DNA from: an uncultured Trueperaceae bacterium
GTDB lineage: Bacteria; Deinococcota; Deinococci; Deinococcales; Trueperaceae
Direction: 5' to 3'
NCBI GenBank assembly: GCA_913057685.1
Contig: CAJXOA010000018.1
Coordinates: 1 to 41,436, forward strand
Length of the DNA stretch: 41,436 nt
Numbering within the stretch: the first letter of the stretch is position 1; the number at the start of each line of letters is the position of its first letter. Below, piece after piece: positions 26,257 through 39,496 of this stretch. Made by a program: the position numbers and the translations under genes. Below the pieces are notes generated by a model that ran no database searches, was not told the DNA's origin, and saw only the letters and a program-made list of their open reading frames with translations.

Positions 26257-26982
26257 CTACGCGACCTCGCCGGCGCCGACGTCGAGGCGGGCGAGGAGGC
26301 CCCGCACCACGCGCTCGGCGCGGGCGGCCGCCCGCTCGGTGAACGCCCGGAAGTCGGTCTCCGCGGCGTGGTCGGCGGTATCGCTGATGCTGCGCACGAC
26401 GACCCACGGCACCCCCCAGCGGTGGCACACCTGCGCGACGGCAGCGCCCTCCATCTCCGCGCACGCCGCGTCGAACGCCGTGCGGATCGCCGCCCCCGCC
26501 TCCGCACCGGCGACGAACGTATCGCCCGACGCGACCCGACCGATGCGGACGGTCGCCTCCCCGGCGACTGCGGCCTCCGCCGCGGCGAACGCCGCGTCGC
26601 GCAACGCCGCGTCCGCCGGCCAGGCGACCGGTTCGCCCGGGACCTCGCCGGCGGCGTAGCCGAGGCCGGTGACGTCGACGTCGTGCTGCACCGCGTCGCG
26701 CGCCACGACGACGTCCCCGACCGCCAGGTCGGGATCGAGGGCGCCCGCGACGCCGGTGAACACGACCCGCCGTGCCCCGAGCGCGAGGAGTTGCTGCGCG
26801 AGGGCGGCGGCGTTGGCCTTCCCGACGCCGCACACCGCCAACAACGTCGGGTGCCCGTCGAGGGTGCCCTCGTGGACGTCGAACGGCCCGTAGCGCACGG
26901 TGCGGCGCTCGTGCAGGTTCGGCAGCAACGTCGCGATCTCGGCGTCCATCGCCCCGATCACCGCGGTCGGGCCCTCGCTCAC
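26257..26982 (-). CDS. mtnN: 5'-methylthioadenosine/S-adenosylhomocysteine nucleosidase
   Basis: Cleaves adenine from MTA, SAH and 5'-deoxyadenosine, feeding methionine salvage and the methyl cycle. The 241-residue product has the family landmarks: AVIGAMDAEI with the N-terminal catalytic Glu (about residues 8-17), VFTGVAGAL, VASGDTFV, AEMEGAAVAQV with the substrate-binding Glu (about 173-180), and RSISDTAD with the catalytic Asp (about 195-202). The GTG at 26982 overlaps the stop of the upstream gene (GTGA). The longer frame starting at 26997 is not favoured. Together with metH and metF in the window it covers SAH detoxification and homocysteine remethylation. Confidence 0.93.
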   Translation of the reverse strand: MSEGPTAVIGAMDAEIATLLPNLHERRTVRYGPFDVHEGTLDGHPTLLAVCGVGKANAAALAQQLLALGARRVVFTGVAGALDPDLAVGDVVVARDAVQHDVDVTGLGYAAGEVPGEPVAWPADAALRDAAFAAAEAAVAGEATVRIGRVASGDTFVAGAEAGAAIRTAFDAACAEMEGAAVAQVCHRWGVPWVVVRSISDTADHAAETDFRAFTERAAARAERVVRGLLARLDVGAGEVA

Positions 26983-27578
26983 GGGGCCTTCTCCCACACG
27001 AGTTGACCGAGGTACGCGCCGCTCAACGTCAGCGGCAGCGCCAACGCCACCATCCGCACCGCCACCGGAAGGTCGGGCGAGAAGATCTGCACCCCGAGCG
27101 TCATGACGACCATCAGGGCGCCGCCGAGGACGACGACGAAGCGGGCGCGGGGCGCACCGCGACGCAGCATCCAGAGGGTCCCGAAGTACCCGTAGAGCAG
27201 GTAGAAGCTGGCGGAGACGAGGTCGGCGACGAGGCCGTCGTCGCTGGGCGGCGCGACCGCTTGCAGGGCGATGAAGAACAGCGTGGCGCTCATCAGCACC
27301 CCGGAGAAGCGCCCGGGCGCGCCGGCGAGGGGGCGGCGGCGCGCGCCGCCCTCCTTCGCCCCCGCGTCGCCCCCCTTGGCCTCGCCCCCGTTGCCGGCGC
27401 TCCCCTTGGCGTCGCCGCCCTTGGCGTTCCCGCCGGCGGCGCGCCGCGCGGCGCGGGCCTTGCGGGCCTCGCGTCGCTCGCGGCGGCGCGCCGCCTTCTC
27501 GGCCTTGGCGCGCTCCTTCTCCTTCTCGGCCTTCTTCTCCTTCTTCTCCTCCGCGCGGCGGAGCTGTCGATTCACCAT
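26979..27578 (-). CDS. Membrane protein with highly charged N-terminal helix, unknown function
   Basis: A 199-residue protein in three parts. Residues 1-50 are a Lys/Glu/Arg/Ala helix or coiled coil (RRAEEKKEKKAEKEKERAK). Residues 50-85 are a Gly/Ala/Lys low-complexity linker. Residues 90-199 hold about four membrane helices (FSGVLMSATLFFIALQAVAP onward). I do not recognise the family. The ATG at 27578 follows TACCCT (27585-27590) by 6 nt, a leaderless start, and the stop overlaps mtnN by GTGA, so the two are probably coupled. The charged arm suggests ribosome, nucleic acid or phospholipid contact at the membrane, but that is speculation. Confidence 0.72.
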   Translation of the reverse strand: MVNRQLRRAEEKKEKKAEKEKERAKAEKAARRRERREARKARAARRAAGGNAKGGDAKGSAGNGGEAKGGDAGAKEGGARRRPLAGAPGRFSGVLMSATLFFIALQAVAPPSDDGLVADLVSASFYLLYGYFGTLWMLRRGAPRARFVVVLGGALMVVMTLGVQIFSPDLPVAVRMVALALPLTLSGAYLGQLVWEKAP

Positions 27579-27584
27579 GCCCGC

Positions 27585-27594
27585 AGGGTAGCGT
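27585..27594. promoter_or_regulatory. Overlapping divergent -10 boxes
   Basis: The 10-bp string AGGGTAGCGT contains TACCCT on the minus strand (27585-27590; 6 nt from the membrane protein ATG) and TAGCGT on the plus strand (27589-27594; 8 nt from the decarboxylase GTG). They share the central TA. Only 24 bp separate the two start codons. Confidence 0.6.
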
Positions 27595-27602
27595 GCCGCA
27601 CC

Positions 27603-28763
27603 GTGACGGACGCCGACCTCGCCGCCCTCGCCGCGCACCACGGCACCCCGACGTACGTGCTGGACCTCGACGACGTCCGCGCCCGCCTCGCGGAGCTCCG
27701 CGCGGCGTTCCCGGACGCGCACGTCCACTACGCCGCGAAGGCGAACGGCCACCCGGCGGTCCTGCGGGCGTTGGCGGAGCGCGGGGCGGGGGTGGAGGCG
27801 ATCACGGAGGGCGAACTCCGCGCCGCCGCCGCGGCGGGCGTGCCGGGGTCGGCGCTGCTGCTCGGGGGGCCGGGCCAGGACGCCGCGGCGCGCGCCGCCG
27901 CGCGCGAGCTCGGGGTGGCGCTCGTCAGCCTCGACGGCCGCGCGCAGGCCGCCGCCTGGCGGGCGGAGCCCGGTCCGCTCCCGCGCTTCCTGGTGCGCGT
28001 CCACCCGCAGCTGGACCCCGCCACCCACCCGCACCTGGCGACCGGCGCGATGGGATCGAAGTTCGGCGTGACGCCCGCCGTCGCCGCCGCGCTCGCGCGC
28101 GACCTGGCGGAGGTGGGGCGGTTGGCCGGTTTCCACGTGCACGTCGGCTCGATGATCGCCGACCCCCGCACGTACGACGCCCTCCTGGCGGTCCTCGACC
28201 CGCTGTTCGACGCGGTGCCCGAGGCGCGCGTCGCGAACCTCGGGGGCGGCTTCGCGGTGCCCGGCGCCGACCTCCCCGCCGTCGCGGCGCGGGTCGTGCC
28301 GTGGGTGCGGCGCCGCGGCCTGGAGCTGCGGCTGGAGCCGGGGCGGTTCCTCGTCGCCGACGCCGGCACCCTGCTGACGCGGGTGCTGTGGCGCAAGGAA
28401 CCGGGCGAGACCGGCGGGCGGACGCACTGGATCTGCGACGCCGGCATGACCCACTACGCGCGGCACGCCCTCTACGGTGCCGAACCCCCGATCCGGGGGG
28501 TGGGGACGCTGCGCGGCCGCCCGGCGACCGGGGACGTCGACGGGCCGGCGTGCGAGAACGGCGACCGGCTCGGGACCGACCGGACCCTCGCGGCGGACGC
28601 CGGCGACCTCCTGGCGGTCGGGCGGGCGGGCGCCTACGGTGCGGCGATGGCGTCGACGTACACCGCCGCCCCGCGCCCGGCGGAGGTCGTGATCGACGGT
28701 GGGGTGGCGCGCCTCGCGCGCCGGCGGGAGACGCCGGCGGACCTCGCGGCGCGCGACGCGTAG
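27603..28763 (+). CDS. lysA: Diaminopimelate decarboxylase-like PLP enzyme
   Basis: A 386-residue member of the alanine-racemase-fold ornithine/DAP/arginine decarboxylases (group IV). It carries the PLP lysine Lys46 in [16 protein letters not shown] (about 178), the phosphate-binding GGGFAVPG (about 216), [11 protein letters not shown] (about 244-254), and a substrate-binding [11 protein letters not shown] with Cys near 317. LysA normally has GPxCESGD, so a Ser-to-Asn change is visible. The C-terminal [14 protein letters not shown] is as in LysA. Meso-DAP decarboxylation to lysine is most likely. Another carboxynorspermidine/ornithine-type substrate cannot be excluded, particularly as Deinococcota often use the AAA lysine route and ornithine-containing wall. 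The GTG start is probably leaderless. Confidence 0.82.
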
Positions 28764-28830: not shown

Positions 28831-30336
28831 ATGAGTGCACGCAAGATCGTCATCATCGGTTCGGGCTTCGGAGCCCTCGGCGCGGCGGCGCGGCTGCTGG
28901 CCGACGGGCACGACGTCACCCTCTTCGAGGCCCGCGACAAGCTCGGGGGGCGGGCGTACACGTACGAACAGGACGGCTTCGTCTTCGACGGCGGACCGAC
29001 GATCATCACCGCGCCGTGGATGTTCGACGAGATCTGGGCGAAGGCCGGGAAGAACCGCGAGGACTACGTCTCGTTCGTCAAGTGCGACCCGTTCTACCGG
29101 ATCTTCGACGACGCCCAGGCGTTCTTCGACTACAACGACGACGAGATGTTCATCCTGAACGAGATCCAGAAGCGCAACCCCGACGACAAGCGCGGCTACC
29201 TGAACTTCATGAAGACGACGAAGTCGATCTTCGAGAAGGGCTTCGTGGAGCTCGCCGACGAGCCGTTCCTGCACTTCACCGACATGCTGCGCGTCGCGCC
29301 GGACCTGATCCGCCTGCAGAGCTACAAGAGCGTCTACCAGTACGTCTCGCAGTACGTGAAGGACCCGTTCCTGCGGCAGGTGTTCAGCTTCCATCCGCTG
29401 CTGGTGGGCGGCAACCCGTTCGACACGCCCAGCATCTACGCGATGATCCACTACCTCGAGCGGGAGTGGGGCGTCTGGTACGCGCTCGGGGGGACCGGCA
29501 AGCTGGTCGAGGCGTTCGAGCGCCTCATCACCGAGCTGGGCGGCGAGATCCACGTCGACCGCCCCGTCGCGGAGATCCTCGTCGACGGCGAGGGACGCGA
29601 CCGGCGCGCTCGCGGGGTGCGCCTCGAGGACGGCACCGAGGTCCGCGCGGACGTCGTCGTCTCCAACGCCGACGTCGCGACGACGTACATGAACATGATC
29701 GCGCCGCAGCACCGCACGAAGTACACCGACCGCAAGCTGGAGCGCATGGACTACGCCATGAGCCTGTTCGTGCTGTACTTCGGGACCGACAAGCAGTACC
29801 GCGACGACGGCCTCCTCAAGCACCACAACATCATCCTCGGGCCGCGCTACGAGGGCCTGCTGCGCGACATCTTCAAGAACCAGGGGCGCCTCGCCGACGA
29901 CTTCAGCCTCTACCTGCACATGCCGTCCTACACCGACCCCAGCATGGCGCCGGAGGGCCACGAGTCGTTCTACGTCCTCTCGCCCGTCCCGAACCTGAAG
30001 AGCGGGATCGATTGGCGCGAGCAGGCGAAGCCGTACCGCGACGCGATCATGAACTTCCTCGAGGCGAACTACCTGCCGGGCCTGCAGGAGCACCTCGTGA
30101 CCGAGCACTACATCGACCCGCTGCACTTCCAGGGGGACCTGCGGAGCTTCCGGGGGTCGGCGTTCGCGTTCGAACCGAAGCTCACGCAGTCCGCCTGGTT
30201 CCGCCCGCACAACCGCAGCGAGGAGATGGGGAACCTGTACTTCGTCGGGGCGGGCACGCACCCCGGGGGAGGCCTGCCGGGCGTGCTGTCGAGCAGCAAG
30301 ATCGCCGACAAACTCATCAACGAAAGCGTGGCGTGA
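28831..30336 (+). CDS. crtI: Phytoene desaturase (CrtI type)
   Basis: A 501-residue FAD-dependent desaturase. The N-terminal dinucleotide motif is [20 protein letters not shown] (about residues 7-26), followed by [13 protein letters not shown]. The family region [15 protein letters not shown] lies near 192-206, and the C-terminal FAD contact is [20 protein letters not shown]. CrtI converts phytoene to neurosporene or lycopene in carotenoid synthesis. The ATG at 28831 follows TACACT (28819-28824) by 6 nt. The protein is richer in Lys, Tyr, Phe and Ile, and its gene less GC-rich by eye, than its neighbours; this may be constraint or old transfer. No phytoene synthase is adjacent. The aldehyde dehydrogenase follows after one base. 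Confidence 0.9.
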
Positions 30337-39456: not shown

Positions 39457-39496
39457 GCCGCCCAGGATACTCGCCCGTGCGCGTACACTCGGACGT

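Follow-up and report, generated by a model that had tools for sequence, protein, structure and literature searches.

Two -10 boxes sharing a TA between divergent start codons 24 bp apart in an uncultured Trueperaceae bacterium

How are two divergent genes transcribed when their start codons lie so close together that the putative -10 boxes serving them share base pairs, and do the two genes then have to take turns? This question is raised by a gene pair in the window, by which we mean the whole 41,436-nucleotide stretch of DNA analysed from an uncultured Trueperaceae bacterium. If transcription starts where predicted, the pair would have nearly the smallest possible divergent regulatory region, its 24 bp amounting to two boxes beside two translation starts, and it offers a clean setting for asking how much sharing of a single -10 element two polymerases tolerate before they interfere with each other. 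Bidirectional promoters were reportedly the subject of work by Warman, Grainger and co-workers (Nat Microbiol 2021).

Geometry of the spacer and the genes on either side

The two -10 boxes sharing a TA between start codons 24 bp apart are a real feature of the sequence (Table 1), and the coordinates agree with an earlier sequence-only reading, which had described TACCCT and TAGCGT as sharing the central TA; this TA lies at 27589-27590. Each of the base pairs T27589 and A27590 is position -12 of one box and position -11 of the other, and the flanking start codons are the ATG at 27578-27576 on the minus strand and the GTG at 27603-27605 on the plus strand. By spacing arithmetic, the predicted divergent transcription starts lie 23-25 bp apart, a ANNNTANNNT core with starts 7 nt from each box giving 23 bp. 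Given this predicted distance and the shared base pairs, the claim that two polymerases would not find room at once holds.

The overlap of opposite-strand -10 elements at 27589-27590 is as expected for a shared -10 bidirectional promoter, and the TANNNT upstream of both start codons as expected for Deinococcota -10-motif leaderless promoters, as is the lack of a recognisable -35 box: the best matches to TTGACA at a spacer of 15-19 were 3/6 bases on the plus side and 2/6 on the minus side. The sequence-only reading had gone further in stating that there was no room for -35 boxes, but such room exists inside the opposite gene, where hypothetical -35 boxes of either promoter would fall. A GGAG-like ribosome site is absent from the 20 bp preceding the plus GTG.

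Table 1. Coordinates of the divergent pair and of further features discussed in the text
Feature	Position	Strand	Basis or remark
mtnN (MTA/SAH nucleosidase)	26257-26997	-	NF004079, 240 bits (cut-off 169)
Minus gene, 199 aa, lysine/arginine-rich N-terminus, hydrophobic C-terminus	26979-27578	-	Matches in 5/5 genomes of the genus
Predicted minus transcription start, A of ATG, 7 nt from box	27578	-	Predicted from spacing
Spacer between the two start codons, holding both -10 boxes	27579-27602	both	24 bp; sequence
-10 box TACCCT of minus gene	27585-27590 (read 27590 down to 27585)	-	6 nt from ATG; relatives' boxes
TA base pairs common to both boxes	27589-27590	both	Sequence
-10 box TAGCGT of plus gene	27589-27594	+	8 nt from GTG; relatives' boxes
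Predicted plus transcription start, 0-2 nt before GTG	27601-27603	+	Predicted from spacing
Plus gene, LysA-like PLP decarboxylase, 386 aa	27603-28763	+	PF02784, PF00278
MoxR-type AAA gene (second pair)	adjoins 39457-39496	-	TATCCT 7 nt from GTG
GNAT acetyltransferase gene (second pair)	adjoins 39457-39496	+	TACACT 7 nt from ATG
DUF4147/MOFRL kinase gene and 94-aa gene, divergent across 18 bp	L058:7681-7704 (G000:C9)	divergent	Boxes overlap by 5 bp; Pfam for kinase

As for the genes themselves, the window copy of the minus protein matched no Pfam or NCBIfam family. The family to which it belongs, with an N-terminus like MNRQLRRAQAK, charged at first and then hydrophobic, is membrane-protein-like and is conserved opposite the decarboxylase in the window and 21 other loci. 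Its end is overlapped by mtnN, and the two are likely to form one operon. The plus gene scores 281 bits against TIGR01048, below the cut-off of 298. Searches of Pfam and NCBIfam found no DNA-binding regulator domain in either the plus or the minus gene, so the pair does not present itself as a divergent regulator and its target.

The TANNNT motif in the host and in relatives

Across the host genome, sampled as 20 stretches of 20 kb together with the window and analysed with simple codon-model gene calls, TANNNT at a spacer of 5-8 nt precedes 77 of the 357 called starts above the score limit and, for comparison, 1/1013 of the in-frame internal ATG/GTG codons that were sampled; with the window left out, the counts were 70/325 starts and 3/921 internal codons. 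The window pair itself lies outside the set of 357 starts, since the caller missed the minus gene altogether and set the plus start at 27003, and closely spaced divergent starts of this kind should serve as a warning for gene callers. The host spacers peak at 6 nt (9, 44, 20 and 4 starts at 5, 6, 7 and 8 nt, respectively), the value found for the minus box, and TACCCT is the commonest hexamer in the sample (12/78). The plus side has TAGCGT (4/78) at a spacer of 8, which is found at 4/357 host starts as compared to 64/357 at 6-7 nt.

Leaderless mRNAs had been proposed on both sides. This appears likely for the minus gene, with its box at 6 nt, whereas on the plus side, where a spacer of 8 nt marks the limit of the host leaderless range, the leader would possibly be 0-2 nt long and the mRNA probably only near-leaderless. 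The plus promoter may in addition be weak, as suggested by the spacer uncommon in the host and by the triplet preceding its box, which is GGG in the window where TGn is usual in relatives.

The window also holds a second double-leaderless divergent pair, formed by a MoxR-type and a GNAT acetyltransferase gene 40 bp apart, with boxes that do not overlap (Table 1).

For the comparison with relatives, the decarboxylase was searched for in 61 genomes, 53 of which had a match with an E-value no higher than 0.001, some of these matches being weak, and 30 loci (L009-L038, the window's own included) were examined for the divergent partner by means of its N-terminal motif. The divergent pair is kept in 22 of the 30, all within the window's family; the eight loci without a partner comprise two outside this family, one on a contig ending 111 bases upstream, and five others, and for two of the eight (L021 and L033) the minus protein has a match elsewhere. 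On the minus side, TANNNT stands 6-7 nt before the first ATG in 22/22 loci, with spacers counted from that first ATG and tandem-start cases set by hand from the sequence. On the plus side, it stands 5-12 nt before the start in 21/22 loci, most often at 10 nt (9/21); as several in-frame starts are possible in 10 of the 22, the start with a box was counted, and this start is the one aligned with the window's in 7 of those 10. The sole exception is the AT-rich L036, with GAGGAG in place of TANNNT. TGn precedes the plus box in 18/21 loci and is replaced by GGG, GGG and CGG in the window's genome (G000), its sister species (G004) and the same-genus G003, respectively. When named genomes were scanned for the minus protein, a single locus was obtained, on the same contig as in G003. 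Relatives support both start codons as predicted, and their plus genes would tend to have a short leader of a few nucleotides.

Taken together, these patterns bear on the explanation that neither box matters and that both are chance resemblances, TANNNT having three fixed bases only. We strongly disfavour it and consider it highly improbable: the joint chance of both boxes at a spacer of 5-8 is 1e-4 to 9e-4 (1.15e-4 in shuffled versions of the 24 bp and 9e-4 in random sequence of 75% GC), both sides are conserved in relatives, and the TANNNT signature is host-wide.

A more specific alternative would confine promoter function to the minus box. Transcription of the plus gene would then begin inside the minus gene, giving its message an antisense 5' leader, and TAGCGT would be a by-product of the palindromic TA. 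Given one TANNNT, a single further fixed base suffices for an opposite-strand box sharing its TA, and overlaps also arise with a control motif whose core is palindromic (5/7 rows, see below); the rare plus spacer of 8 and the loss of TGn on the plus side point the same way. Nevertheless, a plus-side TANNNT lies near the start in 21/22 loci, those with long spacers included, the GTG lacks a GGAG-like site in the 20 bp before it, and TAGCGT and its spacer are retained in G004. We thus regard a promoter function restricted to the minus box as unlikely, and a function of both boxes as the preferred reading.

The whole spacer is 23/24 identical between the window's genome and G004, versus 159/248 fourfold sites (P 3.4e-4); since 156 of the 1134 24-mers of the plus gene are likewise at least 23/24 identical between these two genomes, spacer conservation lends only modest support. 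These are also the only two of the 22 loci in which the boxes overlap. As the boxes stand apart at the other loci, the overlap at this pair looks like a derived state, and with relatives keeping wider spacings the pair appears to illustrate a route from two separate promoters to a shared one.

In G001, a member of the same genus in which the decarboxylase was not found, TACGCT still stands 6 nt before the minus gene. At this locus (L098), the gene opposite has TATACT 7 nt before its ATG and, judged by eye, looks similar to the phytoene-desaturase-family gene that lies at 28831 in the window.

Overlapping boxes at other loci

Overlap of predicted -10 boxes recurs beyond the window pair. The host genome itself has a second case between a DUF4147/MOFRL kinase gene, which we take to be of the glycerate 2-kinase type, and a gene for a 94-aa protein without a Pfam match (Table 1); here the caller missed the 94-aa gene and began the kinase 96 bases further upstream, and the kinase start adopted rests on relatives. 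The 94-aa protein has a match in 40/41 genomes, and among the 25 loci retrieved for it a kinase match is present in 14 and absent from 11. Overlapping boxes, with neither spacer longer than 9 nt, occur in 9 of the 14 Trueperaceae loci holding both genes, and these nine come from five genera; the overlap is 5 bp at L141, L142, L143, L153 and L155 and 2 bp at L144, L151, L156 and L159.

The fixed-spacing pattern, in counts that include loci with only one real side, is enriched in the 50 genomes of family f4, where it occurs 70 times as compared to 8 times for its reversed form and 5 times for a permuted one. Enrichment was also seen when the start could be either ATG or GTG, with 25 versus 2 (control) in eight genomes of f3 and 31 versus 4 in eight of f4. 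In the window's own family (f1, 39 genomes), the pattern was found 96 times versus 65 in the control, with AT-rich members dominating. At the level of the order, 17 of 18 pattern loci were checked; 5 of them are flanked on either side by a frame of 70 codons or more, and one of the 5 did not pass the GC test. Twenty hits with 6/6 spacing among the matches listed were tested (19 in f3 and 1 in f2; three further listed f3 hits were excluded), and in 12 of the 20, as read from the table, each side carries a frame of 70 codons or longer whose GC periodicity is coding-like. These 12 represent about nine distinct gene pairs, as three pairs of hits look orthologous. The sole 6/6-spaced hit in the window's own genome (C4:74141) is not a divergent gene pair, its minus frame being 4 codons long.

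The spacing between boxes was also surveyed by a scan for divergent pairs in which each side has a coding frame preceded by TANNNT at 5-8 nt, in sampled stretches of seven genomes that include the window and thus the window pair, known beforehand. A first scan (G000 with the window, G010, G056, G038 and G046) gave 51 rows, 7 of them overlapping and 0 at an offset of 0-8; G043 and G099, scanned after the spacing rule stated below had been set down, added 13 rows, of which 6 overlap (5 distinct pairs), 1 falls at 0-8 and 2 fall at 9-20. The latter two genomes confirm the overlapping class but are too few for testing the gap at 0-8 (1 versus 2 at 9-20). The 64 rows from all seven genomes correspond to 61 distinct gene pairs, of which 12 overlap, 1 lies at offset 0-8, 15 at 9-20, 14 at 21-40 and 19 beyond; the overlapping rows fall at offset -6 six times, at -1 five times, and at -3 and -8 once each. 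The double-leaderless habit is uneven among genomes, with few such pairs in the samples of G010, G056 and G099 (5, 4 and 1 rows, respectively).

Control motifs gave 7 rows with 5 overlapping for AT...A and 5 rows with 1 overlapping for TT...A, as against 64 rows with 13 overlapping for TA...T. Because TA, like AT, is palindromic, overlap needs fewer fixed bases, so that some of the overlapping cases may be spurious or may simply evolve readily, and the spacing pattern as a whole is partly a counting effect of the palindromic TA. It is with more doubt than confidence that we put forward the wider generalisation, namely that overlapping -10 boxes flanked by leaderless genes are a recurrent, conserved packing in Deinococcota, in which boxes either share bases, mostly with an 18- or 23-bp geometry, or are separated by about 9 bp or more, arrangements between the two being avoided.

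A probable shared promoter and its relation to known systems

In our view, the window pair probably has a bidirectional shared -10 promoter of the 23-bp class, formed by two -10-motif promoters that lack a -35, the distance from each to its start codon being about that of a leaderless promoter. This reading builds on what is directly observed, namely the geometry, the start codons, the conservation of the boxes and the host-wide motif signature. Polymerase with the housekeeping sigma factor would bind the 10-bp ANNNTANNNT core in either orientation, one of them yielding a leaderless mRNA for the membrane-protein/mtnN operon and the other an mRNA for the LysA-like decarboxylase that is leaderless or has a 1-2 nt leader, with the site occupied by a single polymerase at any time. 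The spacer would have shrunk, starting from separate boxes, in the lineage of the window's species and its sister. Transcription starts, sigma factor use, occupancy and promoter strength enter this model as predictions from the sequence.

The sequence-only reading had gone on to a strict switch, in which the shared TA forces alternation and either gene, when expressed, turns the other off. Simultaneous occupancy would indeed be excluded by the base pairs in common and the predicted start distance of 23-25 bp, and for bidirectional promoters it is accepted that two polymerases exclude each other sterically (NAR 2026, PMC12825309). According to the same source, however, the five E. coli bidirectional promoters tested are all too weak for competition at the basal level: weakening one direction barely raises the other, although strengthening one direction lowered the other. 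By analogy, near-independent expression is to be expected here; such independence, which the sequence-only reading had named as an observation against it, is the outcome expected for weak promoters. Furthermore, the pair persists in 20/22 loci with the boxes apart, and neither gene has the regulator domain searched for above. The exclusion stems from closeness and not from the shared TA, and is not confined to boxes with a TA in common: in 20 stretches of the host genome, 14 of the 41 called divergent gene pairs are less than 70 bp apart. Strict alternation is thus a claim we do not uphold and hold to be quite improbable. Under the shared promoter that we favour, the two genes would be expressed nearly independently at ordinary weak activity, and interference would be expected only under strong activation of one direction.

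Both components of this promoter have precedents. Mutations and reporter assays in Deinococcus radiodurans identified TANNNT located about 6-7 bp ahead of ORFs as the -10 element of a promoter that needs no -35, although a -35 added at 17 bp strengthens the promoter; the motif is tied to leaderless mRNA and precedes about 30% of the phylum's ORFs (Zhong et al. 2025, PMC12340547). Upstream fragments of 50 bp taken from other members of the phylum are active in D. radiodurans R1 (PMC12340547). The window boxes resemble such Deinococcus-Thermus promoters (PMC12340547; Zheng et al. 2011, PMC3160421) in the phylum, in the TANNNT motif, which stands at 6 nt on the minus side and 8 nt on the plus side as compared to about 6-7 nt there, and in having no recognisable -35, an element those promoters do not need. 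They differ in that two of them overlap, the promoters being described there for single genes. The words 'divergent' and 'bidirectional' have 0 occurrences in the main text of either paper, with 'divergent transcription' appearing once in PMC3160421.

For bidirectional promoters, divergent starts 7-25 bp apart are given as the definition (Microbiology 2023, PMC10268837), and in E. coli, promoters whose -10 elements are common to both strands are described as bidirectional, with preferred start distances of 18, 10 and 23 bp (PMC12825309). The window pair resembles these in its opposite-strand shared -10, its predicted distance of 23-25 bp and the steric exclusion that would follow. It differs in that the tested E. 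coli examples, as presented in PMC12825309, have -35 hexamers flanking the -10 on either side, whereas the window pair has no recognisable -35 and would have little or no leader, its start codons edging the shared element.

A double-leaderless divergent pair is in itself not new. In Mycobacterium tuberculosis, where 'closely juxtaposed divergent promoters' are called common, prpD and Rv1129c are likewise divergent neighbours, both leaderless by mapped starts where those of the window are predicted (Cortes et al. 2013, PMC3898074). Unlike in the window pair, one partner there regulates the other, and the figure legend and passages on this pair do not mention a -10 overlap. A search of titles and abstract openings, lying mostly outside the subscription literature, returned no report of overlapping -10 boxes between two leaderless genes. 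Overall, the window promoter seems to combine, in an extreme form, two promoter types already known.
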